NCBI GenBank assembly: GCA_019637955.1
Contig: JAHBUS010000003.1
Location: 124,001-188,000, forward strand
DNA from: Pseudobdellovibrionaceae bacterium
GTDB lineage: Bacteria > Bdellovibrionota > Bdellovibrionia > Bdellovibrionales > Bdellovibrionaceae
Direction of reading: 5' to 3'
DNA length: 64,000 nt
Shown here: piece after piece, positions 8,575-29,444 of the stretch
Numbering within the stretch: the stretch's first letter is position 1
How the letters are laid out: each line of letters opens with the position of its first letter
Notes under the pieces: model-generated
What the model saw: the letters and a program-made list of their open reading frames with translations, nothing else
The model's database searches: none
What the model was told of the DNA's origin: nothing
Program-made: the position numbers and the translations under genes

Positions 8575-8584
8575 GGAGAGACTT

Positions 8585-9319: not shown

Positions 9320-10635
9320 TGCTGAACAAGATCGCCCTTCGCAACGTGCTGAGCCACTGGCGCCAGAGTTTGGCGGCGCTGCTCTCCATTTCGGCGGCGT
9401 TCTTTTGCTTGGTGATCTTTCAAGGTTACATGCTCGATGTCGAGCGGTTGTATTGGGACGGGTATCGCAACCGCAGCATGTACGGCGACGTGATCCTTGA
9501 AAACCGCGAGGCCACCAGCGTGCAGGCGCAAAGCGAGCCTTGGCGCTTCGAGCTGGACGAAAAAGACCAAGAACTGATCGGCGCTTACCTGAACGCAGAG
9601 GGCGCAAGCCAGGTGCAAGAGCACGTGCGTTTTTTAAACTTTAGCGGGCTCGTCACCACCGGCATCTCCTCGAAAATCTTCTTGGCCCAGGCGTTCGATC
9701 TCGATCGCGGCGAGCGGATGCGCGAGCAGTGGAGCTGGAACGTTTTGTACGGCAAACCTTTGCACAAAGCGGTGGATGAGAACCCGCTCCTGGTCGGGCA
9801 GAGCTTGGGATTTCAATTGGGCTGCGAGCCCGAAAAAAAAGAATACTCGCTTTTGCCTGAAGGCGGGTACAAGCCGGTCTTGCGCCCTTTCAATTGCCGC
9901 CGTCCCGACGTGCAGCTCTCGGTCACCACCGAAAGCGGCAATTTGAACGCCATGGATTTTACCATCGTGGGCTTGATGGACTCCGGCTATAAAGACTTGG
10001 ACTCGCGCTACCTGACCCTGCCTTTGCCTCTGGCGCAGCAGCTCTTGAACACCAAAAAGCTCTCGTACTGGTCGGTGAAGCTCAAGCCTGGCGTTTCGGT
10101 TTCGAGCTGGATCGACGGGATGAACCGTCAGTTTCAAAACAAAGCCCCGCATCTTCATGCTATCGCTTGGCAGGACCACCGCTTGGGCGAGATGTACCTG
10201 AAGACCATGAGTCTCCTGAACATCTTCCGCAATTTTGTCACCATCGTGGTCGCGTTCATCTCGGTTCTCTCGGTCACCAACACCATGTTCAAGATCGTCA
10301 AAGAGCGCACGCGTGAGATCGGCACGCTCTTGAGTCTCGGGTTTCAGCGCAGCCAGGTGCTTTCGATCTTTTTGCGCGAGGCTTTGTTTTTGTCGCTCAT
10401 CGGCTGTATTTGCGGTGCGCTGCTGGCTCTAGGGGTCACGGCGGTCGTGAACAACGCTTCGATCACCTACAAGGCCGGGGTTCTTTCGGAGCCCGCGCTG
10501 TTTCGGATCATGACCAATTTGGATTTGTACGTCGTCGCGCTGGCGCTGCTCATGCTCGTCACCGTTGTCACCAGCTACGTGTCGTGCCGTTCAACCGTTC
10601 AACGAAAGATCGTGGATTGTCTCGGGCACGTGTAG
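9319..10635 (+). CDS. FtsX-like ABC permease, copy 2 (LolC/E type)
   Basis: Second permease with the same layout as the copy at 7270: N-terminal membrane segment (about 18-40), a periplasmic domain to about 295, and three C-terminal membrane segments. The coupling motif is VKERTREIGTLLSLGFQRSQV. The periplasmic part differs strongly from copy 1, as expected for an asymmetric LolC/LolE-like pair. Translation is coupled to the LolA-like gene. Confidence 0.9.
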   Translation: MLNKIALRNVLSHWRQSLAALLSISAAFFCLVIFQGYMLDVERLYWDGYRNRSMYGDVILENREATSVQAQSEPWRFELDEKDQELIGAYLNAEGASQVQEHVRFLNFSGLVTTGISSKIFLAQAFDLDRGERMREQWSWNVLYGKPLHKAVDENPLLVGQSLGFQLGCEPEKKEYSLLPEGGYKPVLRPFNCRRPDVQLSVTTESGNLNAMDFTIVGLMDSGYKDLDSRYLTLPLPLAQQLLNTKKLSYWSVKLKPGVSVSSWIDGMNRQFQNKAPHLHAIAWQDHRLGEMYLKTMSLLNIFRNFVTIVVAFISVLSVTNTMFKIVKERTREIGTLLSLGFQRSQVLSIFLREALFLSLIGCICGALLALGVTAVVNNASITYKAGVLSEPALFRIMTNLDLYVVALALLMLVTVVTSYVSCRSTVQRKIVDCLGHV

Positions 10636-14201: not shown

Positions 14202-16631
14202 TCACTTGATCTTTCTCACGATCCCGCTGTCACCATCGACTTCAAGAAGATCGCCGTCCTGAATCAGGCCGGTGATCCCCTCGATGCCCAAAACAGACGG
14301 GATGGAGTATTCGCGAGAGATGACGGCGGCGTGCGAGAGCAGGCCGCCCGTTTCAAGGACCACCGCTTTGGCCACCAAGAACAGCGGCGTCCATCCCGGG
14401 TCCGTGAACACCGCCACTAAGATATCACCGCTTTGAAGTTTCTGCGCCTCTTCCAGGGTGCGGATCACGCGCGCCGGGCCTTGGTACACGCCTTGGCTTG
14501 AAGCGATTCCGCTCCACTCTTTTTCCGACGGGTCTCGTTTTTTGGAAACCTGAAGGCCCACGCCGAGTTCATTCTGCCCTGGATGATGCCGGTACGAGAG
14601 CGGGTACCATTCGCGCCTCGCGGCTCGAGTCGACAATTCCAAAGCCCAGTGCGTTTTGGCCTCTGGAGTGACCGCGGACGCTAGCGCCTTCAGCGCTTGA
14701 ATCCAGTCCCCATCGGTCAGTTGAAAAACACGCTCGCGCCAAGACTGTCCAGAGGCGAGTTCGAAACGGCGCGCCGATTCGAGAGCGAGCTGGCGGATCA
14801 AGCCGTACATTTGCGTCGAGTGATCGCGCACCTCTTCGCGCAGGCCCGTGAAGTGGCGCACGCGCCCCAGCGTTTTGAAAAAGGACCCGGCGCGAAAGCG
14901 CCCGAGCACCGTCGATTGAAAATACTCCCGCGCTTTGATCATTTCGGCGGCTTCGTTTGAAGCTTGCGGGGGATTGGGCGGGTGCTTCAAGATTTGACGG
15001 AGCCAATCATGAATGAAACCGGGGTTTTCGCTCCAGCGGGGTTGGCGCAGATCGAGTTCCGAGACACTGTGGTGTCCGAAGTCTTCAAAGAATCTTTCGA
15101 GTTCTTGGCGGACCTGGGGCGCCTCGAGGTCCAGGTCTTCGCGGCGCATTTTTTCGGCGATACGGCCCAGAGCCTTGCTCGGCTGCAAAAAGGCCAAGTC
15201 GCCCAAACCCGCCATCAAGCGGCCATAGGAGAGCCCCGCTCCCTTTTGCTCGGCGCGGTCAAAATGAATTTTGAAATCTTGTTTCGCGGCCGAGGCCAAG
15301 AAGATCGTTCGAAAATAAAACTCTTCAAGTCGGGGGTAGGCCCGCATCAAGAGATCTTCAGAAAAGTCCGCGAACTCAGCGTCGCTCAGCGAACGCCAGT
15401 CGGTGCGCCGGAACTTGTCTTTGAGGTCCCGCAGCTCGCTGAAACGAAGCTGGGCCGCACCATCGTGGATTTTATAAAGCTTGTGCAAAGCCATCAAAAC
15501 CGGAACGGCCCGCACGATCCCGAGCAAGGAGACCGGCGTCGTTTCGCCGTCACCTTCATAGTCGGGTGAGATCGCCATGTCTTCGTCGAACGCGCGTTCA
15601 CGGTAACCCGGGAGCTGCTTCATCACATTTTTTGAAGCGGTCAGGTTCCAATAAAGCTTTCCGTAGAAGAGGCGGGTCCATTCGACCCCAGATTTTTCGC
15701 CGTCCTTGATTTGACGCGTGAGTTTTAAATCGGCCATGTAGTGGGCCATCGCCGAACCCAAGGTGCGTTTGTAGAGCGAAGCCATCAGCGTGCAGGGAAT
15801 CGAACTTGAAACGCCGCCATCGCGAAGGTCGGCGGTGGTCCACTGGCCCAGCGTCCGCGAGAATTGGATTTTGGTGATGGGACGCGATTGCACCAGCAAA
15901 ATTTGTTCCGAAGCTTCGACGACGAACTCAATGTCTTGGGGGCAGCCAAAATGGGCTTGAACCCGGCAGGCGGTGTCACGCAGCTGAGTCAAGATCCTCT
16001 CGCTCACGGGTAAGTTGCCTTCGCGGGCGCGGATGAGGGGGGCCTCGTCGTGCCAAGACAGCATCCACCGGCTGGGCGACACCAAGCCTGAAACCAGGCG
16101 GTCGCCGCGGCCCTCGATCATCTCGACCAACATCTCCTGATCGTCACCCGAGAGAGGAGAGACCGAGAAGCAAACGCCCGAGAATCGCGCGCGGACGAAA
16201 ACCTGAACGACCACCGCGACACGAAGGTCGTTGGGGTCGATGTCGGCCTTTTCGCAGTAGAGGCGGACGCGCTCGGTGTTTTTCGAGTCCAGAACGCCCA
16301 GCAACGACTCAAAGATCTCCTCTTCCGTGGCCAGATCCAGAAAGCTTTCGAAGAGACCGGCGAAGGAATGATCGCTGCCATCCTCTTTGCTGACCGAAGA
16401 GCGAACCGCCCAGGTCTGGCCGGGATGTTCGCGCAAAAGGTCGCGAATGTCTTTTCGCACCTCTTCAAGCTCCGCCGGCGAAAGAGTCTGCGCGCGGTCG
16501 GGAAGAACGTAAGTCAGCGGAATCGAGAAACCCGCTTCGAGCAAGTGCGCGAGGTGCCGGCCTTTGCCGCCGAAGGTGGCGGCGATCTTGAGGGACGTCG
16601 GTTCAGTTTTCAGCGCGAGGAGATGCTTCAT
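14202..16631 (-). CDS. PEP-synthase-like dikinase 1 (PPDK ATP-grasp + phospho-His domain)
   Basis: N-terminal PPDK/PEP-synthase ATP-grasp: GGKGRHLAHLLEAGFSIP (from about 21), WAVRSSVSKEDGSDHSFAG (about 74-92) and DIEFVVEA...LLVQSRPIT. A long helical middle region follows, then the swivelling phosphohistidine domain TGGLLSHAAVISRE with H767. The PEP-binding barrel of true PEP synthase is missing. The layout is that of rifampicin phosphotransferase or the PigC/TamQ condensing enzymes, which split ATP and phosphorylate a small molecule. ATG at 16631 overlaps the desaturase stop (ATGA), with GGAG upstream. A second relative lies at 20816. Substrate unknown. Confidence 0.88.
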   Translation of the reverse strand: MKHLLALKTEPTSLKIAATFGGKGRHLAHLLEAGFSIPLTYVLPDRAQTLSPAELEEVRKDIRDLLREHPGQTWAVRSSVSKEDGSDHSFAGLFESFLDLATEEEIFESLLGVLDSKNTERVRLYCEKADIDPNDLRVAVVVQVFVRARFSGVCFSVSPLSGDDQEMLVEMIEGRGDRLVSGLVSPSRWMLSWHDEAPLIRAREGNLPVSERILTQLRDTACRVQAHFGCPQDIEFVVEASEQILLVQSRPITKIQFSRTLGQWTTADLRDGGVSSSIPCTLMASLYKRTLGSAMAHYMADLKLTRQIKDGEKSGVEWTRLFYGKLYWNLTASKNVMKQLPGYRERAFDEDMAISPDYEGDGETTPVSLLGIVRAVPVLMALHKLYKIHDGAAQLRFSELRDLKDKFRRTDWRSLSDAEFADFSEDLLMRAYPRLEEFYFRTIFLASAAKQDFKIHFDRAEQKGAGLSYGRLMAGLGDLAFLQPSKALGRIAEKMRREDLDLEAPQVRQELERFFEDFGHHSVSELDLRQPRWSENPGFIHDWLRQILKHPPNPPQASNEAAEMIKAREYFQSTVLGRFRAGSFFKTLGRVRHFTGLREEVRDHSTQMYGLIRQLALESARRFELASGQSWRERVFQLTDGDWIQALKALASAVTPEAKTHWALELSTRAARREWYPLSYRHHPGQNELGVGLQVSKKRDPSEKEWSGIASSQGVYQGPARVIRTLEEAQKLQSGDILVAVFTDPGWTPLFLVAKAVVLETGGLLSHAAVISREYSIPSVLGIEGITGLIQDGDLLEVDGDSGIVRKIK

Positions 16632-17422
16632 CGCCGTCTCCAGTAAAACCAATGAGCCCCTTGCACCACGGGACGTTCGCTCTCCTGAGGCAGTTCGTGC
16701 CGCATCTCGCGCACGCGCGTCCAGTGGAGGCTTGGCCGGTAGTGATGCTCTTGGTGGTAGCCGTTGTTAAACCAAATCAGGTTGTACCAACCCGAGTAAC
16801 AGCTCACGGCATTTTTGAAGCGGTCTCCCGGAACCGCCTCCCAGTGCTCCCAATAATTTTCGGCCGCGGCAAAGACTTGGCCCAAATAGGAGATCAAGAG
16901 ATAAAACGTCAAACCACCCAGGCTCCAAAAGCCGACGGCCGCCACCACAAGGACGAAGAACGACAACTCGAAAACCTGGCGCGCCCGCGCGTGGGTGCTG
17001 CTCGACTCCACGAACAGAGTCCCTAGCGGCGTGCGCAAGGGCGAGAGAAAAGCGTAGGCCAGCAGAGACTCGGGTTTCTGGTTCCGGCCATAGCGCAGAG
17101 TTGAGGAGCGGTCTTCGGGGCCGTTGTTGAACTGATGATGATTCACGTGGTGCGCGTGGTACAAAAACGAGGGCACGCCCAAGTTCAATCCGTTGATCGC
17201 GGCGAACAGCGCATTGAGCGCGGGCGATTTGAAAAACTTTTGATGGATAAAATTGTGCGCGACGACCTGGTAGTTGGTGCAAATCAAAAAAATCAGAACG
17301 AGGGCCGCAAGCCCCAAGGCCCAAGACGGCCATCTTCCCACGCCGTTGATCGCAGATCCCATCAGCGCCAGTTGAAGGAGTGCGAGCACAATCAAAAGGG
17401 CGTCCGCACGGTGGCGCAGCAT
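16628..17422 (-). CDS. Membrane fatty-acid desaturase/hydroxylase family
   Basis: The three histidine boxes of the membrane diiron desaturase superfamily are present: H56NFIH60, H89-A-H-H-VNHH96 and H223QEHH227, with further His in ENYWEHWE. Hydrophobic segments lie at about 8-25, 35-55 and 150-185. The substrate should be an acyl chain, or the alkyl part of a product made by neighbouring genes. It starts one base after the amidohydrolase stop and overlaps the dikinase start, so the three are translated from one message. Confidence 0.85.
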   Translation of the reverse strand: MLRHRADALLIVLALLQLALMGSAINGVGRWPSWALGLAALVLIFLICTNYQVVAHNFIHQKFFKSPALNALFAAINGLNLGVPSFLYHAHHVNHHQFNNGPEDRSSTLRYGRNQKPESLLAYAFLSPLRTPLGTLFVESSSTHARARQVFELSFFVLVVAAVGFWSLGGLTFYLLISYLGQVFAAAENYWEHWEAVPGDRFKNAVSCYSGWYNLIWFNNGYHQEHHYRPSLHWTRVREMRHELPQESERPVVQGAHWFYWRRR

Positions 17423-17423
17423 T

Positions 17424-18374
17424 TTACCAGGCCGCCTTCCAGGCGCGGGCTTGGCTCAAGAGTGTCTTGGCGTTGCCCGACCAGATGAGCGCGCGCTCGT
17501 CTTGATCGAGCAAGCGTTCGTTCATCGCTTCGATGAGACGGTCCTTGATCACTTGCTGATTGCCGCCCAAGAGGGGCCAATCGCTGGCAAAGAGCAGACG
17601 CTCGGCACCGAGTTTCTCGATCGCGCGTCCCATGCTGCCCGCGGTCTGCCACGAGAGGGTCCACCAGACGTTGTCGAAATTCAAGTCGATGTCGAGCAGC
17701 TGTTCGGGGTCGTGGATGTTGAAGTGCGCGACCACGAAGTTGACTTTGGGGTACTGACGGAACCAATCGAAGAACAAGCGAGGATCCCCCAGCTTGGGGT
17801 CTTGAAATGCCAAATGCGAGCGCACGACGCCCGAGTGCAGAACCACGAGCCAGCCTTCTTTGGAGGCCACGTCGAGCAAGGCGCGGTAGCGCTCATCTTC
17901 GGGACCGAAGCCGTCGGCCATCGGGTGAATCTTCAAGACGCGCACGCCATTCGCCTTCATGTCGGCCACAAAGGCATCAATCGGCGCGCCCCGGTCCAAA
18001 AACGGAAACTGCCAGGCCGGAATCAGGTGCGGGCGGTCCTTGGCGCAGGCTTGGATAAAAGAGTTGGGAATCAAGGGCGGGTGGGCGACGAGCAGAGCGC
18101 CATCGATGCCGGATTTGCGGCAAGCGTCTTCAAAGTCACGAAAGCTGCTCTCGATCAACAGATGGCTCATCAAATAGCCCATCGAAAGCTCTTCGGTCAC
18201 GCCCCGGGCCCAAACGGGCGCGCGCCGAAGGCCCGCAGCGAGGGCCTGCGTTTGCCGTGTCCAAGGGGCGATCAGGGACCGGGCGCCCTTCTTGATCGAT
18301 TGCAAACCGAACGGCAGATCGGGGATCGGGTAGACATGCGTGTGAAAATCGAAGATGCGCGGGGATGTCGCCAT
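17424..18374 (-). CDS. Amidohydrolase family (ACMSD-like TIM barrel)
   Basis: Metal-dependent TIM-barrel hydrolase/decarboxylase of the amidohydrolase-2 group. Residues H11 and H13 in FDFHTHVYP, His in VVLHSGVVRSH, His in VVAHFNIHDP and Asp in LFASDWPLLGG are the expected metal and catalytic ligands. The 316-residue length is normal. Members hydrolyse lactones or decarboxylate aromatic or unsaturated acids. AAGGAA lies 5 nt before the ATG. It is the first gene of an amidohydrolase-desaturase-dikinase operon, divergent from the CarS-like operon. Confidence 0.85.
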   Translation of the reverse strand: MATSPRIFDFHTHVYPIPDLPFGLQSIKKGARSLIAPWTRQTQALAAGLRRAPVWARGVTEELSMGYLMSHLLIESSFRDFEDACRKSGIDGALLVAHPPLIPNSFIQACAKDRPHLIPAWQFPFLDRGAPIDAFVADMKANGVRVLKIHPMADGFGPEDERYRALLDVASKEGWLVVLHSGVVRSHLAFQDPKLGDPRLFFDWFRQYPKVNFVVAHFNIHDPEQLLDIDLNFDNVWWTLSWQTAGSMGRAIEKLGAERLLFASDWPLLGGNQQVIKDRLIEAMNERLLDQDERALIWSGNAKTLLSQARAWKAAW

Positions 18375-18379
18375 AGATA

Positions 18380-18443
18380 TTCCTTGAATCTGTCGAAGAC
18401 CTCTCGTCTGATTACAGTTAGATTTGTGGATTTCATCAAGGAA
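18380..18443. promoter_or_regulatory. Dyad in the divergent amidohydrolase/CarS-like promoter
   Basis: TTCCTTGA (18380-18387) and TCAAGGAA (18436-18443) form an 8-bp inverted repeat 48 bp apart inside the 89-bp divergent spacer. This could be a bipartite operator controlling both units. The left arm also contains the amidohydrolase ribosome site, so chance is possible. Confidence 0.3.
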
Positions 18444-18463
18444 ATTCAGAGGGAACGGCGCCT

Positions 18464-19003
18464 ATGACTGGTGTCTTGCTGCTCATTTTACCGCTCTTCA
18501 TTTCGGCGAGCCTGCACATGGCGATCGTCAAATGGGATCTGCTGGCTTTCGCGAAAAAGCCGCTCTCGCAGCCCTTGTTTGGACGCAATAAAACTTGGCG
18601 TGGATTTCTGGTCATGCCGCCGCTCACGCTGCTGGGGGTGGAGATCGCTCACCGGCTCACGCTCTTGTGGTTTGCGGATTGGGCATGGCTGTGGCCCGAG
18701 AATCCTGTGGACCGCTGGTTTCTGGGGCTCATGCTCGGTCTTGCCTATGTTTTGTTTGAACTCCCCAATTCGTGGTTCAAACGGCGCCGGGGAATCGCCG
18801 AGGGCGCGCGTGCCGAAAGAAACGCGTGGATTTTTATCGTCATCGATCAAGGCGACTCGGCACTGGGCTGCGCGCTTTGCTACGCTCTCTTGTGGCCGGA
18901 AACGGCGCCTTACGTTCCGATGCTGGTGTTGATCGGCCCTGCGGTGCACCTCTTTGGAAATTATCTTCTGTTCAAATTGAAACTGCGAAAAGAGCCCGTA
19001 TGA
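18464..19003 (+). CDS. CDP-archaeol synthase-like membrane protein (CarS/DUF46 family)
   Basis: 179 residues with about five membrane segments. The family motifs F39GRNKTWRG47 and D128-Q-G-D131-S are in the order seen in CarS, which transfers CMP from CTP onto a phosphorylated lipid. Archaeal CarS acts on digeranylgeranylglyceryl phosphate; bacterial relatives are poorly characterised and may act on diacylglycerol phosphate. The stop overlaps the start of psd (ATGA), so a CDP-lipid made here could feed head-group synthesis. GAGGGAA precedes the ATG. Confidence 0.82.
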   Translation: MTGVLLLILPLFISASLHMAIVKWDLLAFAKKPLSQPLFGRNKTWRGFLVMPPLTLLGVEIAHRLTLLWFADWAWLWPENPVDRWFLGLMLGLAYVLFELPNSWFKRRRGIAEGARAERNAWIFIVIDQGDSALGCALCYALLWPETAPYVPMLVLIGPAVHLFGNYLLFKLKLRKEPV

Positions 19004-19896
19004 GCCGCGAGGTGTGGGTCCGCAACCGCCGCACCGGCAGGATGGAGCGCGAGACGCAGTTTTCTGCGGGCCTTTTTCACTTTTTGTTCGACACCAAGTT
19101 GGGACTGCTGCTCTCGAAGTCATTTTTCGTCAAGCCGTGGTTCTCGAAACTCTACGGTGAGTACCAAGATTCGTCCCGAACGGCGGCGAACATCGAGCAG
19201 TTCGTTCAGGAGCATGGCATCCGCACCGAGGAGTATGAAGACGGTCCCTTCTCGTCGTTCAACCGCTTTTTCTACCGCCGCTTTCGCCCCGGTCAGCGTC
19301 CGTTTCCGAAAACTGAAAACGTGATGGGAGCGCCCGCCGAGGGGCGCGTGCTGGCGTATCAAAATTTAAGTGAATGTCCGTTGTTGGCGATCAAGGGGAG
19401 CCGCCTGACTCTTGAAGACTTGGTTCAAGACTCCGACTTGATCACCCCCCAAATGCGCGAGGGCCCGGTCTTGATTTTTCGTCTCTCGCCGCTCGACTAC
19501 CACCGGTTTCACGCACCCGACGATTTGAAAGTGCTCACCAAGCAAGACGTCCCGGGCGACCTGTTCACGGTGCACCCACTGGGGTGGAAAAACCGACCCG
19601 ACGTGTTTTTTCAAAATCAGCGCGAGTGGCTTCGGGCCGAGACGGCTCGCTTTGGTCCCGTTCTTTACGGCGCGATCGGCGGTTTCGTGGTGGGGCGCAT
19701 CCGTTGGGGCGCCGCGGAGTCGTTCGGTCGTGGTGAGGAGATGGGTTGGTTTGAGATGGGCGGCAGCACCATCGTCTTGGTCGGCGAGGCGGGGGCTTTC
19801 GAGATCGATGCGGACCTGCTGAAAAACACGAGCGAGGGCGTCGAGACTTTGGTTCGTCTCGGAGAACCCGTGGCGCTCGCGGCGAAATCACGCTAG
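19000..19896 (+). CDS. psd: Phosphatidylserine decarboxylase proenzyme
   Basis: PSD family, which self-cleaves to a pyruvoyl enzyme and makes phosphatidylethanolamine (or a relative). The cleavage motif is G254-G-S256-T, and the conserved histidines are H168 and H171 in DYHRFHAP. The usual PxDG acidic residue of the maturation triad is replaced: the sequence reads APAEGRV with E114. The 298-residue length is normal. It overlaps the CarS-like gene and precedes the diiron oxygenase gene by 12 bp. No phosphatidylserine synthase is visible in the window. Confidence 0.88.
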   Translation: MSREVWVRNRRTGRMERETQFSAGLFHFLFDTKLGLLLSKSFFVKPWFSKLYGEYQDSSRTAANIEQFVQEHGIRTEEYEDGPFSSFNRFFYRRFRPGQRPFPKTENVMGAPAEGRVLAYQNLSECPLLAIKGSRLTLEDLVQDSDLITPQMREGPVLIFRLSPLDYHRFHAPDDLKVLTKQDVPGDLFTVHPLGWKNRPDVFFQNQREWLRAETARFGPVLYGAIGGFVVGRIRWGAAESFGRGEEMGWFEMGGSTIVLVGEAGAFEIDADLLKNTSEGVETLVRLGEPVALAAKSR

Positions 19897-19908
19897 GCTC
19901 ATGCTGAC

Positions 19909-20844
19909 ATGGACACTCGGATTCTCACCCAGCTGAATCAGCAATCGCGAAGCGCCGCTCATCGGCACGCCGAGCTGCGTGTCCTGCTCGAGGCCGGTCA
20001 GCTGGCGCCCGACAAACTTTGGATCACCGAATCGATCTCGCATCTGGCTTACGCGCCTTTTTTTAAAGACCTCACCCCCGAAGAACGGCTCACGTACAAC
20101 CATCTCTTTGCGCTCACGACGGTGGAGCAGTTTATTTTTTTCGAAGGCCAGATCACGCCGATGCTGCACGCCGACCGTCTGGAAGCGCGCGGGGAGAAGT
20201 TCGAGGCGCCCGAGCGCGAAGCTCTGATCACGTTTGACCGCGAAGAGCGCGAGCACGTCGAGATGTTCCAAGCGTGGCTCAAGCTGGCCGCCCGCAAGTA
20301 TCCGCTTGGACGCGTCTTTGAAAAAACGCCGGCCACGCAGTGGATCGTGGAGATGATTTTTAAACGTCCACGTTTTTTGATTTTTTGGACCGTGGCTTTG
20401 ATGTACGTCGAAGAGCGCACCACCATCTTGAGCCGCCGCATGCTCAAAGAGGCGAACATGGACGAGGTCAGCCTCGAGATGCACGAAAAGCATCTCAAAG
20501 ATGAAATGCGCCATCTGGTCCTGACCGATGAGCTTCTAAAAGGCTATTGGGATCCCGCGCCGAAGTGGCTCAAGCGTTTGAACCTTTGGATTTTGAAGGC
20601 GTTTTTCTATCAGGTCTTTTTCAAGTCCTACTCGGCCCGGCACACGTTCAAGGCCCTGCTAAAATACCATCCCCGCCTCGAGAAGTACCAGAACGAGTTT
20701 GATCAGTTCATTGAGGATCTACCGAACAACCGCGCTTACTTGAGTCAGATGTTTTCGGCCGAGGCCTCGCCCCGACTTTTTCAGGCGCTGAGTGCGCGTC
20801 CCGAGTTTGCCGGGATCATGTCGTTTTTGCGGCTCGAACGATAA
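19909..20844 (+). CDS. AurF-type diiron N-oxygenase-like protein
   Basis: Ferritin-like helical protein of 311 residues. The spacing of likely iron ligands matches p-aminobenzoate N-oxygenase AurF/CmlI: E73, E113-x-x-H116, E168 or E169, then H195-xxx-E199-xx-H202. The third His distinguishes AurF-type enzymes, which oxidise amines to hydroxylamine, nitroso or nitro groups, from ordinary two-His ferritin-like oxidases. It is the third gene after CarS-like and psd. Its last 29 bases overlap the end of the convergent dikinase gene. Substrate unknown; an amine made by the aminotransferase fusion at 25275 is a candidate. Confidence 0.78.
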   Translation: MDTRILTQLNQQSRSAAHRHAELRVLLEAGQLAPDKLWITESISHLAYAPFFKDLTPEERLTYNHLFALTTVEQFIFFEGQITPMLHADRLEARGEKFEAPEREALITFDREEREHVEMFQAWLKLAARKYPLGRVFEKTPATQWIVEMIFKRPRFLIFWTVALMYVEERTTILSRRMLKEANMDEVSLEMHEKHLKDEMRHLVLTDELLKGYWDPAPKWLKRLNLWILKAFFYQVFFKSYSARHTFKALLKYHPRLEKYQNEFDQFIEDLPNNRAYLSQMFSAEASPRLFQALSARPEFAGIMSFLRLER

Positions 20845-23140
20845 GCCCCTCGGCATTCACCTCAATCCATTCGCCATCCTTGAGCAGCGAGAGCGCCCCC
20901 GGCACTTTCACTAAGAGAGGCTTTTTCAGTTCACGCGCGATGATCGCGACGTGGCTGAGAGCGCTGCCGCGCTCGGAGATCAAAGCCTGGCACTCCGACA
21001 AAAGGTAGACCCAGGCGGGGTCGGTGGTCTCGGTGACGAGCACGCAGGTGCGTAGGTCCAGACCCGCCGGGATGTCATTGGGATTTTTAACCTTGAGAAC
21101 TGAACCCGCGATGCGTCCGGCTGAGACCTGTTCGCCCTGCAAGGAGCGCGAACTTTTCTCGGAGGTTTCGTTCATGGGTGGGAGTGAGCGAGAGGAGCGG
21201 GGCACCAGCGCGAGCGCCGGGTAGTGCCGCTCATCGCTCATGTCGTTGAGCGCGCGGTTTTTGCGGGCCTGCGCCCAGAGTTCTTCGCGTGTCCACTCGC
21301 CTGAACGCCAGCGGTTGAGATCGTCAAAGCGCAAGAAAAAGACGTCCGTGCGTGAACCGGGAAAAAGAGCCGCGCCGAGAAGCAGGTACAAATCTCGGAA
21401 CCAGCCAAAGTAGCGGGTGCGCAGGAGCCGGCAGTGCTCGCGGTAAACCAACGCTTTTTCAAATTTGGACAGGCCGGTGGGTTCCACGGGCGGCGGCGGT
21501 TTTTTGGGAGACGGCTGGGCCCGCAAAAGCAGAAGTAAAAACGAGCGGGGATCCTGTCGGAGAGTCAGATTTTCGAGCTTCAAGTCGCCAAAAGAGCGCT
21601 CGCCAAATTGAATCAAGAAATCCGAAGCGTCTTGCGCGGCGTGGGGGCCGAAGCGGCTCCCGAGAATCTCAATCAGGTTGTCTTCGCTCAGCGTTTCATC
21701 CCTCAGGAGATCTTCGAGAGCTTTGCGCCGGTCGGCCGCGACGAAGTGCCGCGCGAGGTGGGCCAGTTCCAGCTGAGGGCGCACGGATTCGAGGTGCAAG
21801 TTCGTGGGGGCCGCCAGATTTTTTTTTCCCGCTTTGGACATCAAAAAATAGTCGTTGAAGATGCCCATGGCCAGATCTTGCGGCAACGACAGTTCGCGCT
21901 CGATCCGGTCGAAAATTTTCTGCGACGAAGCTTGGCCGCGTTTCAAATCTTGAAATTCCTGATGCAGCTCTGCCAAGCGCCGGTCGCTTCGGTCCAAGAA
22001 GCGTCTCGTCTCTTTTGTTTGTCGCATCGAGAGGCGGATCAATCGACCCAAGGTTCGCAGCTTTGCGAACGCCGTCGAAGATTTGAGTTTGGGAACGCGG
22101 ATGTCGAGGCGGTCCGAAAATCCGATCAGCTCCAACCAGGCTTTGAATTCGCGCGCGCCTCCGGGCAGTGCGCCCATGGCCGCCGCGTAGTTTTCGAGAT
22201 TGTAGTACAGGTGGCCATCGAGATCTTCGACGAGCTTGGCGTAGTGGGGAGCGAGCTCCCGCAGCTGCGCCGTGCTTGCTCCCAAGAGGCGGGCCGAATC
22301 GGTGAAGACGGCCTCGTACATGCGACTCACAAAATCGCACGTGAGCGGAGCGGTCAGCCCGGGATAGCTCTCGCTTAAATTGGCATCCGAAAGCGCTTTG
22401 AGCGGTTCGAAGCTTTGCGTGATGGGGCGCGACTGCAGGAGATAAAGCCGCCGGTTCGCCCAGGCCCATTCGATGTCGACGGGATGACCCGATTCATTCT
22501 CAATTTTAAGAAGCGCGGCTTCGATCCGTTCGAGCGCCTCACTCGGGAGAAGCTCGGGGCCGGTGCGTGAGAGCGCGGGAACGAGGCGCATCTTGAGAAT
22601 CGTTTCGGTTTCGGCCGTGCCGTCCACCACGCCCGTTCCCAAGCCCCGGCAGGCTTCGATGCGAAGCGGGGCCGAAGGCCCGGTGGGATTGCGGCTAAAC
22701 GCAACGCCCGCGAAGTCGGGCTCGATCATCTTTTGCAGAACCACCGCCATCTTTTGCGCCTTGGCGCTATAGCCTTTGTCGCGGGCGGCGTGGGCCGAGG
22801 TGAGCACGGTTTTGAGACTGGTTTCAAGCTGATAAGGTTCGACGTGCAAGAGCGTTTCGAAAAGACCCGCGTAACTTTGCGTGTGGCCATCTTCGAGGTG
22901 CGAGCTGCTGCGAACCGCGAAGGTCCCGCCTTGGGCCTGCATCCACTCGCGAGCGGCGGCGAGGGCCCCCGCGGGCAGTTGACCTCGGGCGCGTTCGAAC
23001 TCGTCGAAGAAAGCCGTCGTGAAGATCGAAAAAGGCGGAACGAGGTGACCCGCCTCGCGAAGCTGAACGAGCTGCCGGCCTTTACCGCCATACAAGGAGG
23101 TCGGTGAGCTTTGCGGGTCGGCGGTCCACAGCGCACTCAT
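20816..23140 (-). CDS. PEP-synthase-like dikinase 2 (PPDK ATP-grasp + phospho-His domain)
   Basis: Same layout as the protein at 14202, but diverged. The ATP-grasp parts are GGKGRQLVQLREAGHLVP, FAVRSSSHLEDGHTQSYAG and PVDIEWAWANRRLYLLQSRPIT. A long helical middle region follows, then the swivelling His domain ERGSALSHVAIIAREL with H730. There is no PEP barrel. It is the last gene of the UbiA, GNAT-like, dikinase operon, and its start overlaps the GNAT-like stop (ATGA). Two such enzymes in one locus suggest two ATP-driven activation or condensation steps, or two substrates. Confidence 0.87.
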   Translation of the reverse strand: MSALWTADPQSSPTSLYGGKGRQLVQLREAGHLVPPFSIFTTAFFDEFERARGQLPAGALAAAREWMQAQGGTFAVRSSSHLEDGHTQSYAGLFETLLHVEPYQLETSLKTVLTSAHAARDKGYSAKAQKMAVVLQKMIEPDFAGVAFSRNPTGPSAPLRIEACRGLGTGVVDGTAETETILKMRLVPALSRTGPELLPSEALERIEAALLKIENESGHPVDIEWAWANRRLYLLQSRPITQSFEPLKALSDANLSESYPGLTAPLTCDFVSRMYEAVFTDSARLLGASTAQLRELAPHYAKLVEDLDGHLYYNLENYAAAMGALPGGAREFKAWLELIGFSDRLDIRVPKLKSSTAFAKLRTLGRLIRLSMRQTKETRRFLDRSDRRLAELHQEFQDLKRGQASSQKIFDRIERELSLPQDLAMGIFNDYFLMSKAGKKNLAAPTNLHLESVRPQLELAHLARHFVAADRRKALEDLLRDETLSEDNLIEILGSRFGPHAAQDASDFLIQFGERSFGDLKLENLTLRQDPRSFLLLLLRAQPSPKKPPPPVEPTGLSKFEKALVYREHCRLLRTRYFGWFRDLYLLLGAALFPGSRTDVFFLRFDDLNRWRSGEWTREELWAQARKNRALNDMSDERHYPALALVPRSSRSLPPMNETSEKSSRSLQGEQVSAGRIAGSVLKVKNPNDIPAGLDLRTCVLVTETTDPAWVYLLSECQALISERGSALSHVAIIARELKKPLLVKVPGALSLLKDGEWIEVNAEGLIVRAAKTT

Positions 23141-24279
23141 GCGGGTTGCTCCTTTTCAAAAAGTGCGTAGCGGGTCACGTCGCGCAGGCCCCCCGGCAAG
23201 CTGGTAAAAATCGGGCTTTTGTCGGCGAGGTAGCAAATGTACGCCGATTCATAACCTTGGCGGAGGCCTTCGTCGGTGATTTTTTTTCCGAGCGCGGCTC
23301 CGAGCCAAGGTAAAGAGCTCGAAGGTTTTTTGCCAATGTAAAGAACGAGCAGGCGCCCGTGATGGGACTTGAGTTCGCCGAGAGCTTTGAGTTGAAACAA
23401 TCGGGCCAGCCAAGGCCATCGCCGGCTGCGCGTCTGAAGGCGCAAAAGAACGGGAAGCGCGTCCTTGACCGCAACCACGAAACCTTCCGTCTGTCCGTCC
23501 TTTTCGGCGAACAGCACGAGGCGCGGGTCCAGCAGAAAAGACAAATCGCGAAAGAGCGCTTCGAACGCCGGCCACGCCAGCGGCTCATAGTTGGGCATTT
23601 GGTTGAAGGTTTCGCTCAAGACGTCGTAAAGGCGGCGAAGCTCTTCGGGCCAGCGCTTCAAGTTCAGCGGGCGGATCTTGATGCCGCTGCGGTTCCAGCG
23701 CGGTTCGGTCGCCTTCCAGATGCGGTCAAAGGCCGGCACCGCTTGGTCTTTGCGGATCTCGACCGTGCGCCATTGCCCCGCCATCTGAAATCCGGCCCGG
23801 CGAAAATCCTCGGCATGGGAGGCCGGAAAAACGGGTTCACCAAAAAACGGGTCTTCGTGCGATTCGACCATCAACCGGTAGCTGTTAAAAAAGTGGCCCT
23901 GCATCGGCGCGCGCAAGGCAAGACGCTTGTCGCCTTGAACCCGAAAGAAGGGCTGCGTGCGCAAATCGGTTTCGATCCGCGCCAGAAGGTCGGCGCCGCT
24001 CTCGGCCTCCAACCGCTCGTAGTAACCCAAGGCGGTGAACTCCGCGGCGGCCCGGGCCACCGAAACGAGAGCGCGCGCCTGCACCTGACCTTGAGAGTCC
24101 CGCAGGAGGTAAGCGCGGAATTCGCGGCCGAGCGGGGAGTTGGGACCCCAAAGTTTTTCGAGATCGCTCAAGTGCTCATCGAGAGCCCAGGCGTGATCGC
24201 GGTACAAGGATTGACGAAAGGCCACAAAATCTTCGAAGAATTTTTTGTTCCAAGACGCCGTGACCTCGAGGCTCTTCAT
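23137..24279 (-). CDS. Probable GNAT-superfamily N-acyltransferase
   Basis: 380 residues beginning MKSLEVTASWNKKFFEDF; the ATG at 24279 overlaps the UbiA-like stop. The arrangement (WNKKFFEDFVAFRQSLYRDHAW, then ARALVSVARAAAEFTALGYYE, FFNSYRLMVESHEDPFFGEP and SHAEDFRRAGFQMAGQWRTVEIR) resembles the long YghO-like GNAT proteins. No single motif is decisive, so the family call is tentative. If correct, it would transfer an acyl group onto an amine, which fits an amine-making locus. An upstream extension to 24558 exists but lies wholly inside the UbiA-like gene. Confidence 0.65.
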   Translation of the reverse strand: MKSLEVTASWNKKFFEDFVAFRQSLYRDHAWALDEHLSDLEKLWGPNSPLGREFRAYLLRDSQGQVQARALVSVARAAAEFTALGYYERLEAESGADLLARIETDLRTQPFFRVQGDKRLALRAPMQGHFFNSYRLMVESHEDPFFGEPVFPASHAEDFRRAGFQMAGQWRTVEIRKDQAVPAFDRIWKATEPRWNRSGIKIRPLNLKRWPEELRRLYDVLSETFNQMPNYEPLAWPAFEALFRDLSFLLDPRLVLFAEKDGQTEGFVVAVKDALPVLLRLQTRSRRWPWLARLFQLKALGELKSHHGRLLVLYIGKKPSSSLPWLGAALGKKITDEGLRQGYESAYICYLADKSPIFTSLPGGLRDVTRYALFEKEQPA

Positions 24280-25238
24280 ACCGAAAGGACTCCCGCGTGC
24301 CACAACCAACTCCAAGCCAAGAACAGCAGCATCGAAAGGCCCACGGGCAGTGTCGGATCGGCGCTGGGGCGCCGCTCGAGATTCAAGACGAAGCGCAAAG
24401 ACTGAACCGTCACGAACAAAAATGCGAGCACCACGAGACCCACCGCGATCCAGGGAGAGGCCACAAAAGACGTGCGCTTGGCGAAAAGGCTCACCTGCAA
24501 GGCGATGCCGATCCCCAGCAGCAAGACGACCAGCAGGGCCGGAAGACGGGGGCCCCAAACTTTAGAATAAGTGACGTAGGTCGTTTCGTCGGCGGGGCGG
24601 CGGATCTTACGGCCAATCTCCCAAGCCGCCGCGAAAGCCCAGGCGCCCAAGGCAAAGACGAGGACATCACGGGTGTGCGTTTCGAGGTGCGCGGACATCA
24701 GGTAGAGCGAAATGATCAAGGCGCTCGGGTTGTGCGTGAGCAGGGCGAGCGGAAGCGAGGCGCGCAAAGTTCTTTCGATGAAAAACCATTTGAACATCAA
24801 AAAGATAAAAAACGCCGAGACCGAAAAGAGAATCCACGTCGCGGCGGACTGAATAAGAACGACGTTCAAAATCAACAGCAGCATCTCGAGGACCTGCGCC
24901 AAGATCACCAAGTCGCGGCGGTGAACCGCGCCGCGCGCGAGCGGGCGGTCCGGAAACAGGGTGCGGTCCACCTCTTCGTCTTTCAGCTCATCGGCAATGC
25001 GAATCAACAGGTAGAACATCGGCACCGAAAGACTCTGCGCGATCATCGGGAGCCAAGGCCAACTTTGGTCGGGGCCGGGGGGCGCCAGTAACGATGTCAT
25101 GAAGCCGAGACTCACCAGGCTTTGCAGGAACAGAGCAAGCATGACGGGATTCAGAGGGTAGCGCTCGCGCAAAAACACGCCCACGCGAGGCGCCCAGCCG
25201 GATACGGACCTTGGATTTGGCGAGGATGTCTTCGTCAT
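24276..25238 (-). CDS. UbiA-family membrane prenyltransferase-like protein
   Basis: About eight hydrophobic segments over 320 residues. The first Asp-rich motif is ADELKDEEVDRTLFPDRPL (D83, D87, D91), the variant DExKDxxxD form of the UbiA prenyl-diphosphate site. The second site reads EIGRKIRRPADE, also a variant. UbiA enzymes attach an isoprenoid to an aromatic ring, heme, or glyceryl lipid. It heads the operon with GNAT-like and dikinase 2, and only 36 bp separate it from the divergent aminotransferase fusion. The ribosome site is weak. Confidence 0.8.
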   Translation of the reverse strand: MTKTSSPNPRSVSGWAPRVGVFLRERYPLNPVMLALFLQSLVSLGFMTSLLAPPGPDQSWPWLPMIAQSLSVPMFYLLIRIADELKDEEVDRTLFPDRPLARGAVHRRDLVILAQVLEMLLLILNVVLIQSAATWILFSVSAFFIFLMFKWFFIERTLRASLPLALLTHNPSALIISLYLMSAHLETHTRDVLVFALGAWAFAAAWEIGRKIRRPADETTYVTYSKVWGPRLPALLVVLLLGIGIALQVSLFAKRTSFVASPWIAVGLVVLAFLFVTVQSLRFVLNLERRPSADPTLPVGLSMLLFLAWSWLWHAGVLSV

Positions 25239-25274
25239 GGAAATACTCTAATCTGAAGCTCGAGGGAAAGTCCA

Positions 25275-28013
25275 ATGTCAGAACCGAAATCTCCGTCGTC
25301 ATCAATGGCGGATTACATCCGCTTTGTTCGTCCCCACACCGGCGAGCAGATGCGTCTGCTCCAGCTGGATTGGCGCTTCTTCCGCGCCGAAGGCGATTGG
25401 ATTTGGGGCACCTCGCCGCGAGGATCCGACGTGCGCGTTTTGGATTTGCTCGGCGGCTATGGAACCAATCTGTGGGGGCACAATCCCGCGGATTGGATCG
25501 AAGACGTGAAGCAGTTCTTCGATGAAAAACAGGTGCAGCAAGCGCAGCTCTCTTTGCGGACCGAAGCCGCCGAAGCTTCACGCGAGATGAGCCGCGCCTT
25601 TGAGACCGTCTTTCGCGAGGAGTGCATCGTTCATTGGGCCAGTTCCGGTTCGGAAGCCGTGGAAGTGGCTTTGCAGCACGCCCTCATGAAGTACCAGTTC
25701 CGCCGCGACGACTTTCCGTCGTGTCAGCGCGGACTCTTGGATGCTCTGCGCACCAAGCGTCTCACCTGGGGTGAAAGCGGCGTCACGGTGGAGCAGATCC
25801 TGGAACGCCAGCACGAAGTTCTTTCGGGCGCTCCCATTGTGCTCACGCTCGAACGCTCGTTTCATGGACGCACCGTCGCGGCGATGGGCGCCTCCGACAG
25901 TCCCTTACTGAAATACCTCCCTCACACGATGGGCGTGCAAAAAATCACGCTCGATCTCGAAAAACCCGAGGCCTGGCTCGAGCAGGTGCAGCTTCTCACG
26001 CGGGAGCTGCCCTTTTTGGTTGAGCGCAAAGGTCAGGTCGTCGTTGATCGCGGCGAATGGAGCCCGGTGGTGGGTCTGCTCGTCGAACCCGTGCAGGGCG
26101 AAGGCGGTATTTATGCTTTGGCGGAAAAGCACGTCGCGGCTCTGCAAGAGATCGCGGGCGTGTTCTCGCTGGATTTGATCGCCGACGAAATTCAATGCGG
26201 CCTCGGTCGAACCGGGCACTTGAGCGCCTGCGAGAGCATCGGGCTTCGCCCCGACGTGATCGTGCTCGGAAAAGCCTTGGGCGTGGGTCTCACCAAGGTG
26301 TCGGCGGTGCTGATCCGGCGCAGCCGTTACCAAAAAAACCTGAGCCGCCTCGGCTCCACTTTTAGCGAAGATGATCTCTCGTGCCGTTTGGCCCGCGAAG
26401 CCGTGCAGCGAGCTGAATCCATCGATCACCTGAAGACCGTGCGAGAAAAAGGCCAATCGATGCTCTCCCGCCTTCAAGAGTTGCGCGCGGATTTTGCCGA
26501 CGTGCTGGTGGAGGCGCGCGGACGGGGGCTCATGCTCGGCCTTGAGTTCCGCTCGTGGCAGGACAATCCTTCGAACATGCTGCGCTTGTTTCAGGGCAAT
26601 CACTTGAGCGGCTATTTGATGGCAAGTTTTCTTTTGAACCGCCATGGCGTGCGCGTCGCGCCCTCGCTCAGCAATCCGGGCGTTTTGCGTTTCGAGCCCT
26701 CGGTGCACGTCGAGCCGGCGCAGGTGGAGCAATTGATCTCGGGACTGCGCGAACTCTGCGAGTGCGTTCGCCGCGGCGATTTTGCGATGATCACGAAACA
26801 TTTGTGGGACCCCGATCATAAAATTCTCTTCGATAAAACCGATCGCGATTTCCGCTCCCATCCGCGCGCGTCGCGCTTTGACCGGGGAGCGGTGTCTCGC
26901 CGGATCGGGTTTTTCGGTCACTTGCTGCGCTTTGAGGACCTCGGTCAGTTTGACCCCTCGATGGCCGCGGTTCCCCGCGAGGTGATCGAGCCTTGGTACC
27001 GCCAGGGCGAAGGCTTTTTCCGGCCCTCGCTCTTCGAGCGCGTGCACTTGCCCATGTCGGGCGGTGAGGTGCTCGAGGTCAATATCATCGGTCTTTACGA
27101 AACGCCCGCGTCGATGATCCACGCCTTTCGAAACCGTGAATCCAGTTTGATTCTGAACCGCCTGCAACAGGGCTTGGAGTTGGCGCGTGATTTGGGCTGC
27201 GAAGTGATGGGCCTCGGCGGCCTCACCTCGGTGCTCGCAAAAAACGGTTACGCGCTCGACAGTCTCGGGATGGGGCTCACCACGGGCAATACCTACACGC
27301 TCGTGACCAGTTGCCAAGCCTTGGAGCGGACCGCGAAGGAGATGAGCTTTCCTCTCGAAGAAGCCTGCGTCGCCGTTGTGGGCGCCTCGGGCAATATCGG
27401 TGAGGCGTACGCGCACTGGCTGGCCGGGAAAGCGCGCAAGGTGATTTTGGTGGGGCGCCCGGCGCGCGAGTCGCAGCTGCAAGAGGTCGCCAGCGAGCTT
27501 CGCCAGAAGTCCAAGACCGAAATTGCGGTTTCGACCGACATGAGCGTCCTCGCGGACTGCGACTTTGTGGCGTCGGTGACGAATGCTCCCGGTTACGTGA
27601 TCGCTCCGGAGGATCTCAGTTCGAAGGTGAAAGCGATTCTCGATGTGGCCACGCCTGCCGATGTGGACCCTCGTGTTTTGACCGAATGCCCGCACGTCCG
27701 CGTTTTGCAAGGCGGCTGGGTGAAGATCCCGGGCTTTGACGGTTACCTGGGTTCGGCGTTCCCCACGCCGCCGGGGCACACGCTCGCTTGCATGGCCGAG
27801 ACCATGCTCTTGGGCCTGCGCAGTCACCGCACGCCGTTCTCGTACGGTCCCCTCGAGAAAGACAAGATCAAGAAGATCACCGATTGGGCCCGCGAATCGG
27901 GCTTCGAACTCGGTCAATTGATCGGCGCCGAGGACGTCAAAAAAGACAAGAGCGTGAATCGCGAGAAGGCGACGAATGACTTTGCCCGGTCCAAGCGCGG
28001 CTCGGGACTGTAG
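25275..28013 (+). CDS. Class-III aminotransferase / acyl-ACP-reductase-like fusion
   Basis: Two enzymes in 912 residues. Residues about 15-500 form a class-III PLP aminotransferase: SSGSEAVEVAL, FHGRT, D304EIQCGLGRTG and the PLP lysine K333 in LGKALGVGL. Residues about 540-890 match cyanobacterial long-chain acyl-ACP reductase (AAR): RIGFFGHLLRFED at its start, GLGGLTSVL, TTGNTYTLVTSC, the NADPH loop G703ASGNIG709 and the end MAETMLLGL...FSYGPLEKDKI. The Cys that carries the acyl group in AAR appears absent: the GGVVEHCFD region reads GGWVKIPGFD. Expected chemistry is acyl thioester to aldehyde to amine, as with tambjamine TamH. It is transcribed alone. Confidence 0.85.
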   Translation: MSEPKSPSSSMADYIRFVRPHTGEQMRLLQLDWRFFRAEGDWIWGTSPRGSDVRVLDLLGGYGTNLWGHNPADWIEDVKQFFDEKQVQQAQLSLRTEAAEASREMSRAFETVFREECIVHWASSGSEAVEVALQHALMKYQFRRDDFPSCQRGLLDALRTKRLTWGESGVTVEQILERQHEVLSGAPIVLTLERSFHGRTVAAMGASDSPLLKYLPHTMGVQKITLDLEKPEAWLEQVQLLTRELPFLVERKGQVVVDRGEWSPVVGLLVEPVQGEGGIYALAEKHVAALQEIAGVFSLDLIADEIQCGLGRTGHLSACESIGLRPDVIVLGKALGVGLTKVSAVLIRRSRYQKNLSRLGSTFSEDDLSCRLAREAVQRAESIDHLKTVREKGQSMLSRLQELRADFADVLVEARGRGLMLGLEFRSWQDNPSNMLRLFQGNHLSGYLMASFLLNRHGVRVAPSLSNPGVLRFEPSVHVEPAQVEQLISGLRELCECVRRGDFAMITKHLWDPDHKILFDKTDRDFRSHPRASRFDRGAVSRRIGFFGHLLRFEDLGQFDPSMAAVPREVIEPWYRQGEGFFRPSLFERVHLPMSGGEVLEVNIIGLYETPASMIHAFRNRESSLILNRLQQGLELARDLGCEVMGLGGLTSVLAKNGYALDSLGMGLTTGNTYTLVTSCQALERTAKEMSFPLEEACVAVVGASGNIGEAYAHWLAGKARKVILVGRPARESQLQEVASELRQKSKTEIAVSTDMSVLADCDFVASVTNAPGYVIAPEDLSSKVKAILDVATPADVDPRVLTECPHVRVLQGGWVKIPGFDGYLGSAFPTPPGHTLACMAETMLLGLRSHRTPFSYGPLEKDKIKKITDWARESGFELGQLIGAEDVKKDKSVNREKATNDFARSKRGSGL

Positions 28014-28334: not shown

Positions 28335-29444
28335 CTACATTTTGTGGATGGTTTCGGAGACGGGTTTGCCTTCGAGATTGATGAGTTGGAGTTTGACCTC
28401 TTTTTTCTTCCAGTCGATGTCGGCCAGCCCGAAGTTTTCGGGGTTGTACTTGTCGCCGATGCGGTGGCGGTTTTTCTCGCCCTCGATGGTGCTGGTTTTG
28501 TTGATGCCGCTCGCGGTGATATCGGTGATGACGGTTCCTTGCGGCGTTTTCATGCGGCTGATCTCGCCGGCGTGACGGTCCCCACTGATGATGAGCACGC
28601 TTTTGAGACGGCGTTTTTTGAAGAGTTCGAACATGCGCTCGCGTTCATGCGGAAAGTTCATCCATTTTTCAAAGCCGTGGTCTTCGCCCAAAAACTGGAT
28701 GGAGCTGATGAGGATGCGAAGATCCGCGGGCTTCTTGAGCTCCTTGTCGAGCCAAGTCCACTGCTCGTCACCAAGGATCGTTTTGCTTTTGTCCTTCGTG
28801 GCCTGAAAGATATCCAGCGCGTGCTTGGGAGTTTGGTTCTTTTCGAGCGGACTGCGGTTGTAGCGCGTGTCCAAAAAGAGGATTTGCACTTTGTGCCCAA
28901 GTTTCCCGATGATCACCGAGTGGTAAACGCCCTTGCGGCCTTCGGGGATCATGGCCGAATCGACCGGATAAAACGCCCGGAAGTCTTTGAGCGCTTCGTC
29001 TTTGACGGGGTTGTCGGCGCCGCCATCGTTTTGGCCGTAATCGTGGTCGTCCCAAGTTGAAAGCATCGGCACCACGGAGCGGAACGCGATGTACTCGGGG
29101 AGCTTCGCCTGCTTGGCGTAAACCTTCAGCAAGGGCCGCTCGTCCGGTTTCGATGCGTAGATGTTGTCGCCCAAATTCAAGTGCAGCTGCGGTTTGAAGG
29201 TTAAGATGGTCGTCCACAGAGGTTGCGGACGCTTTTGATCCGAGCAAGAGCCGAAGGTGATGCGCTCGAGATCTTTTTTCTCGTCGAAGGTCATCGACGG
29301 CAGGCTCGCGATCACGTCGGCATCCGTGGGGCCAAGCTCCTGATCGGGCGGCGTGGCGGTGGGGTCGGCCTTGGGAAGCTGCGAACAAGCGCCGAGCGAA
29401 AAGGCCAGGGTCAGAAGCAGCAGAAGATTCACGATCGATTTCAT
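28335..29444 (-). CDS. phoD: PhoD-like alkaline phosphatase/phosphodiesterase lipoprotein
   Basis: Lipoprotein signal with lipobox LGAC (Cys at 20), then a PhoD-type metallophosphatase. Metal ligands sit in FGSCSD, LGDNIY, TWDDHDYGQND and SGDRHAGE. The 369-residue length is near that of compact PhoD relatives. It should release phosphate from phosphomono- or diesters in the envelope. The gene sits between two copies of a palindromic repeat and has no operon partner on its strand within 80 bp. Confidence 0.9.
   Translation of the reverse strand: MKSIVNLLLLLTLAFSLGACSQLPKADPTATPPDQELGPTDADVIASLPSMTFDEKKDLERITFGSCSDQKRPQPLWTTILTFKPQLHLNLGDNIYASKPDERPLLKVYAKQAKLPEYIAFRSVVPMLSTWDDHDYGQNDGGADNPVKDEALKDFRAFYPVDSAMIPEGRKGVYHSVIIGKLGHKVQILFLDTRYNRSPLEKNQTPKHALDIFQATKDKSKTILGDEQWTWLDKELKKPADLRILISSIQFLGEDHGFEKWMNFPHERERMFELFKKRRLKSVLIISGDRHAGEISRMKTPQGTVITDITASGINKTSTIEGEKNRHRIGDKYNPENFGLADIDWKKKEVKLQLINLEGKPVSETIHKM

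Follow-up and report, generated by a model that had tools for sequence, protein, structure and literature searches.

The ten genes at positions 14202-28013 of the window, by which is meant the whole 64,000-nucleotide stretch of DNA that was analysed, from a relative of predatory Bdellovibrio, are a member of a conserved, uncharacterised family of lipid-type gene clusters. On balance, we lean toward the view that these genes encode a pathway dedicated to a polar lipid not described before, built on an alkyl amine, bearing a head group that is CDP-activated and probably of the phosphoethanolamine type, and exported to the outer membrane. The kinds of enzyme encoded are all known; in the literature searched, no description of their combination was found, nor any account of such clusters in Bdellovibrio.

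Organization of the locus and its predicted products

All ten open reading frames (ORFs) of the originally predicted locus were found to be intact and uninterrupted; their families were checked with Pfam and NCBIfam, and catalytic residues lie where expected. As also predicted, the genes form four units, which alternate in strand: A-B-C (minus), D-E-F (plus), G-H-I (minus), and J (plus), with divergent spacers of 89 bp between C and D and 36 bp between I and J. ATGA overlaps had been claimed for five gene pairs and were counted in four (B/A, D/E, I/H, and H/G); gaps of 1 and 12 bp separate C from B and E from F, respectively, while F and G converge with an overlap of 29 bp. The start codon of A was placed at ATG 16631, replacing TTG 16652. 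With a G+C content of 0.591, compared to 0.570 and 0.577 for its surroundings, the locus bears no compositional sign of recent import. Adjoining J, a gene at 28335-29444 encodes a PhoD-like phosphatase lipoprotein, a 45% identical homolog of which is found approximately 27 kb from J in G059 (locus L021).

The product of J (25275-28013, plus strand; 912 amino acids) is a fusion of the TamH type. Its N-terminal part is a class-III transaminase (Aminotran_3) with the PLP lysine at Lys333, invariant in the alignment, and its C-terminal part is an acyl-ACP reductase (AAR)-type domain (TIGR04058, E 9e-23, under the equivalog cut-off) with a nucleotide motif and a catalytic residue, Cys839, that aligns with Cys294 of SeAAR; both Lys333 and Cys839 are kept in 26/26 colinear sequences aligned. 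The best solved relatives of the two parts are CrmG and cyanobacterial AAR/SeAAR, respectively. CrmG and SeAAR are likewise the closest structures named for PtTamH of tambjamine YP1 biosynthesis (PMC9594044), which supports the TamH-type identity of J. PtTamH, together with the ligase-ACP PtTamA, was shown biochemically to convert fatty acids to amines with glutamate as the donor, and it shares with J both the N-terminal class-III transaminase and the C-terminal reductase with its catalytic Cys, at a similar length (941 versus 912 amino acids; PMC9594044). Unlike the setting of PtTamH, that of J consists of phospholipid-type genes without pyrrole genes, and no gene of the locus was found to encode a TamA-like ligase-ACP. 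The top NCBIfam match of J (NF053554; 228 bits, cut-off 850) is PigE of prodigiosin biosynthesis (4ppm), which has the same two domains but in reversed order, reductase first. The proposal that a reductase-transaminase makes an alkyl amine here, which J would do from acyl-ACP, is thus well supported by its domain order and catalytic residues. TamH-type fusions were also observed to adjoin export genes elsewhere, in two uncharacterised amine-forming clusters: one of Leisingera (L136, 7624-15032), with LolA-like and MMPL genes, and one of Photobacterium (L016, 8928-23035), with ORFs that resemble ketosynthase, ACP, and RND genes on visual inspection.

Two proteins, A (14202-16631, minus strand; 809 amino acids) and G (20816-23140, minus strand; 774 amino acids), had been described as PEP-synthase-like dikinases, a description which holds for the dikinase part but not for the PEP synthase type. 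In both, the ATP-grasp domain (PPDK_N) comes first and the phospho-His domain (PEP-utilizers) last, as assigned with Pfam and NCBIfam, and no Pfam match to a PEP-binding barrel follows the His domain. This domain order excludes housekeeping PEP synthase and pyruvate phosphate dikinase and identifies A and G, from sequence, as ATP-dependent His-phosphotransferases of the RPH/PigC layout. The alignment of A with RPH extends from the ATP-grasp domain through the His domain, and the catalytic His (His767 in A; His730 in G) and the ATP-site Arg (Arg77 in A) are invariant among the orthologs of each protein. With RPH and the PigC/RedH ligases, A and G thus have in common the ATP-grasp, substrate, and C-terminal phospho-His domains and the conserved His and Arg; they differ in scoring far under all of these equivalog cut-offs (A, 227 bits for RPH, cut-off 999, and 207 bits for PigC, cut-off 1300; G lower; NCBIfam) and in occurring as two dikinase copies within one lipid-type cluster.

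The genes D (18464-19003, plus strand; 179 amino acids) and E (19000-19896, plus strand; 298 amino acids) encode a predicted CarS-like, CTP-dependent CDP-lipid synthase and a phosphatidylserine decarboxylase (Psd) homolog, respectively. D matches PF01864 above its cut-off and conserves the motifs KTxRG, ELPNSxxKRxxG, and DQxDSxxG. In E (PS_Dcarbxylase), the GGST site, which holds the GST self-cleavage motif (Ser256), and the catalytic His168 are intact; another Psd is encoded away from the locus, and E would accordingly be an accessory one. The genome also carries two CDP-alcohol transferases and two CTP_transf_1 (CdsA-type) proteins. The product of I (24276-25238, minus strand; 320 amino acids) is a UbiA-like membrane protein with putative transferase activity that resembles prenyltransferase model PRK13592 (E 2e-39, under its cut-off). 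Its first Asp-rich motif is present (RxxDExKDxxxD, with DExKDxxxD invariant), a second is absent and replaced by WExxRKxR...YxTYxK, and no match to I was found on plasmids.

The best solved relative of I is DGGGP synthase (E 1.2e-6) and E also exceeds the cut-off of TIGR00163, a model that bears the name archaetidylserine decarboxylase. Together with the CarS-like nature of D, which is likewise reminiscent of archaeal CDP-archaeol synthase, these matches could be read as a bacterial version of the archaeal route to isoprenoid ether lipids, comprising DGGGP synthase, CDP-archaeol synthase, and archaetidylserine decarboxylase. Unlike in the archaeal system, however, no GGGP synthase was found in the host genome, which is 99.9% complete, and the second motif of I is different; such a route would also leave J, H, A, and G unexplained. 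We consider it very improbable, and the canonical archaeal pathway was set aside for want of GGGP synthase.

B (16628-17422, minus strand; 264 amino acids) is a membrane protein of the fatty-acid-desaturase family (PF00487, E 4.5e-30) with three His boxes, and homologs of 36-39% identity occur in clusters L071, L074, and L123. F (19909-20844, plus strand; 311 amino acids) is an AurF-like diiron protein with two ExxH motifs, only distantly related to its family (PF11583, 33.4 bits against a cut-off of 29.6); comparison with solved structures gave no significant match, and no characterised close relative was found. Homologs of F were detected in five other genomes, each adjoining a dikinase gene, and F is therefore a probable member of this pathway family, with a likely role in oxidation of the chain or the amine. 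The N-oxidation of an amine originally predicted for F is unsupported, given the distance of the AurF match and the presence in the g105 and g112 clusters of a P450 beside H, without F. In loci L164 (2898-5249), L165 (13009-15354), and L168 (3367-5784), a homolog of HMG-CoA reductase fused to an APH-type kinase (by similarity in L168) adjoins both a dikinase gene and one of the AurF-like type; two of these loci also hold a UbiA-like gene.

H (23137-24279, minus strand; 380 amino acids) has no family match in Pfam or NCBIfam, and a sequence search against solved proteins returned nothing significant. Its AlphaFold2 model (mean pLDDT 81) adopts a tandem-GNAT fold, with 7q3a retrieved at Z 22.5 (rmsd 3.9 over 303 residues) and N-myristoyltransferases at Z of approximately 15. 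The original suggestion of a GNAT-like acyltransferase agrees with this predicted fold, and by fold H is a candidate acyltransferase. Homology to the bacterial ceramide synthase CCNA_01212 is conceivable. Finally, C (17424-18374, minus strand; 316 amino acids) is a hydrolase of the Amidohydro_2 family (PF04909).

Conservation and variation across the phylum

Orthologs of J were detected in 6/141 genomes of the order and in at least 35/369 of the phylum, the latter being a lower bound since two candidates were scored per genome. Orthologs of I occur in 30/369 genomes of the phylum at a threshold of >185 bits, a cut-off that is partly a choice, with generic UbiA proteins starting at 177 bits and continuing downward. 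J and I are found together in 18/369 genomes (Fisher p 1.3e-13), and some contigs with I stop before J could be reached. Within the related loci, whose ORFs were called by a simple longest-ORF script, G lies next to I, with both read in one direction, in 22 loci that span six genera; adjacency was also counted for D and I (18 loci) and for H and J (13 loci). A adjoins J on one strand in 11 loci of seven genera, often without D, I, or G, and D on one strand in five loci of four genera; in g85 (L123), the three genes E, A, and D make up a single compact operon. Orthologs of J, I, G, D, and A are clustered in other families of the phylum despite identities to the window proteins of 26-34% (41-48% for D), and H, E, and B recur in subsets of these loci, with orthologs of H in the g105, g112, and g85 clusters. 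Linkage kept at such divergence indicates that the genes very likely work together. Moreover, when matrices of pairwise identity were compared among J, I, G, D, and A, the correlation was 0.88-0.96, a level reached in 0/2000 permutations; common descent of the host genomes would give the same correlation, and hence it shows joint inheritance rather than contact.

The original prediction had proposed a search for co-occurrence of the ten families in other genomes and had been made to depend on the genes being kept together in relatives. The core of J, I, G, D, and A does recur clustered in many genera, and it stays together. The same prediction called the locus one with no known match, which applies to the full ten-gene set but not beyond it, since related clusters are widespread in the phylum. 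These findings also bear on whether the ten genes are simply unrelated operons that are neighbours by chance. The four separate blocks on alternating strands would fit this explanation, as would C, which had been proposed as a pathway member; no homolog of C was seen in any related locus in the annotations across the phylum, and its membership is doubtful. Against chance stand the co-occurrence, the adjacency, and the parallel divergence of the other genes across several families, and we regard it as a highly improbable account of the locus as a whole.

The order of genes in the g105 clusters is J, followed on the other strand by H, a P450 (missing in some), G, I, and D, then a divergent set encoding two permeases, an ABC ATPase, a LolA-like protein, and a 404-amino-acid protein of no known family, and then A. 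In g105, g112, and g85, A is located further along the same cluster, past the exporter or other genes. A different arrangement is present in G258, where D, I, G, H, and the exporter are kept and J is replaced by DAGK, a NAD_binding_4 reductase, and an AAR-like reductase without a transaminase match. The amine is thus not essential to the module, and other lipid precursors can feed it. This replacement favours a reading in which the core module of D, I, G, H, and the exporter produces a phospholipid whose backbone is an alcohol or an ether, with J serving mainly to supply an aldehyde and its transaminase giving a variant amine in some species. However, the transaminase lysine is intact in every colinear homolog of J aligned, and J diverges in parallel with I, G, D, and A; this reading is therefore judged to be quite unlikely.

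The head group varies among the clusters of relatives. In genus g19, which belongs to the same family, loci L019, L022, and L028 combine the A-J pair with a methyltransferase, Psd, a BtaA-like DUF3419 protein, and an MMPL-like protein; an aminocarboxypropyl group derived from SAM and then decarboxylated would leave either an aminopropyl head group or an N-alkyl-1,3-diamine. Phosphonate genes are found in the cluster of G250; in L133 (4547-18998), an ortholog of the UbiA-like gene is accompanied by genes for PEP mutase, a TPP enzyme, an Fe-ADH, a ketosynthase, a PlsC-like acyltransferase, Psd, a BtaA-like protein, and an exporter, a gene set that suggests a phosphonolipid. Among the J loci L058-L060 and L071, a PAPS-reductase-family protein and a CysN-like GTPase (L071, with homologs in L060), a sulfotransferase (L058), and an Aminotran_1_2 enzyme (L071, with homologs in L059) suggest sulfated, perhaps sphingoid-like lipids. 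Elsewhere in the phylum, L169, L170, L174, L175, and L176 hold genes for a UbiA-like protein, an RPH-type dikinase, a formyltransferase-like protein, and a fusion of an alpha/beta-hydrolase to an AMP-ligase (the fusion in L169, by Pfam); some of these loci add a BtaA-like DUF3419 protein, a protein of 680-737 amino acids with an AAR-like C-terminus, a NAD_binding_4 reductase, or DAGK.

A proposed pathway for an alkyl-amine-based lipid

In the pathway that we favour, homology and intact residues support J as the source of the amine, A and G as His-phosphotransferases, D as the enzyme of CDP-activation, and E as a decarboxylase, whereas the order of the steps, the kind of lipid formed, and the partner of A and G are inferred. 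The first step, well supported by homology, would see the C-terminal reductase of J convert acyl-ACP to a fatty aldehyde, from which its N-terminal transaminase would generate a long-chain primary amine. The tandem-GNAT protein H may then N-acylate this amine or a derivative of it, and B and F may desaturate or hydroxylate the chain, a P450 occupying a similar place in relatives. A and/or G would next pass a phosphate from ATP via histidine to a lipid hydroxyl or, alternatively, activate a carbonyl so that it condenses with the amine, in the manner of PigC. With the lipid phosphate converted by D to a CDP-lipid, a general CDP-alcohol transferase could add serine, and E would decarboxylate the product to yield an ethanolamine-type head group; the UbiA-like I presumably adds or moves a group. 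The originally proposed modified alkyl amine or aminolipid with a phospholipid-type head group is therefore retained as regards the amine step of J and the head group, in that D and E travel with the dikinases, while its N-oxidation is dropped.

The two roles considered for A draw on different neighbours. Its repeated association with D and the E-A-D operon of g85 favour A supplying the phosphate ester needed by D, whereas the A-J pairs lacking D favour a PigC-like condensation. These same pairs, together with the nearly equal scores of A for PigC and RPH, could indicate that the product is not a membrane lipid but a secreted small-molecule alkaloid, with the amine made by J and condensed by A with an aldehyde partner, as for TamH and TamQ/PigC in tambjamine and prodigiosin biosynthesis. 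As originally predicted, though, a scan of the ten genes and of flanking genes turned up no PKS or pyrrole gene, and no ACP gene, by which a tambjamine/prodiginine cluster proper is rejected; the enzymes D and E are of the kind that forms phospholipid head groups, and A lies beside D in four genera. An alkaloid thus appears unlikely, if still deserving of serious consideration.

Returning to the alkyl-amine-based lipid, its transport would involve a Lol-like ABC transporter and LolA-like carrier leading to the outer membrane, in relatives and possibly here. The g105 and g112 clusters have embedded within them an exporter composed of an ABC ATPase, two permeases, and a LolA-like carrier, components in common with Lol-type lipoprotein/lipid exporters (ABC ATPase, two FtsX/MacB-like permeases, and LolA-like carrier); unlike these, the exporter of the relatives is linked to a lipid-type biosynthetic cluster. 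By virtue of this embedding, a similar set on the plus strand of the window (6569-10635) may belong to the pathway and possibly exports its product. It consists of an ABC ATPase (6569-7273), FtsX-like permeases (7270-8574 and 9319-10635), and a LolA-like carrier (8561-9319). Several observations count against the pathway: the window exporter bears only a weak resemblance to the one in relatives, with two genes lying between it and A, the core occurs without J in G258, C has no partner elsewhere, and no lipid hydroxyl was identified for A or G to phosphorylate.

More tentatively, and with the odds against it, members of the Bdellovibrionota may build membrane lipids of a new class, whose backbone would be a fatty amine in place of glycerol or a sphingoid base. 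The amine would arise when an aldehyde derived from acyl-ACP is transaminated, lipid kinases of the RPH/PigC type would feed a CarS-type CDP-lipid synthase, and a dedicated Lol-like system would deliver the product to the outer membrane. If the proposed pathway is right, RPH/PigC-type dikinases would gain a role in the assembly of lipid head groups, and TamH-type amine synthesis outside of pigment alkaloids would become a testable question. It would also represent an uncharacterised lipid pathway in a phylum of predatory bacteria, the envelope of which must survive in or on another bacterium.
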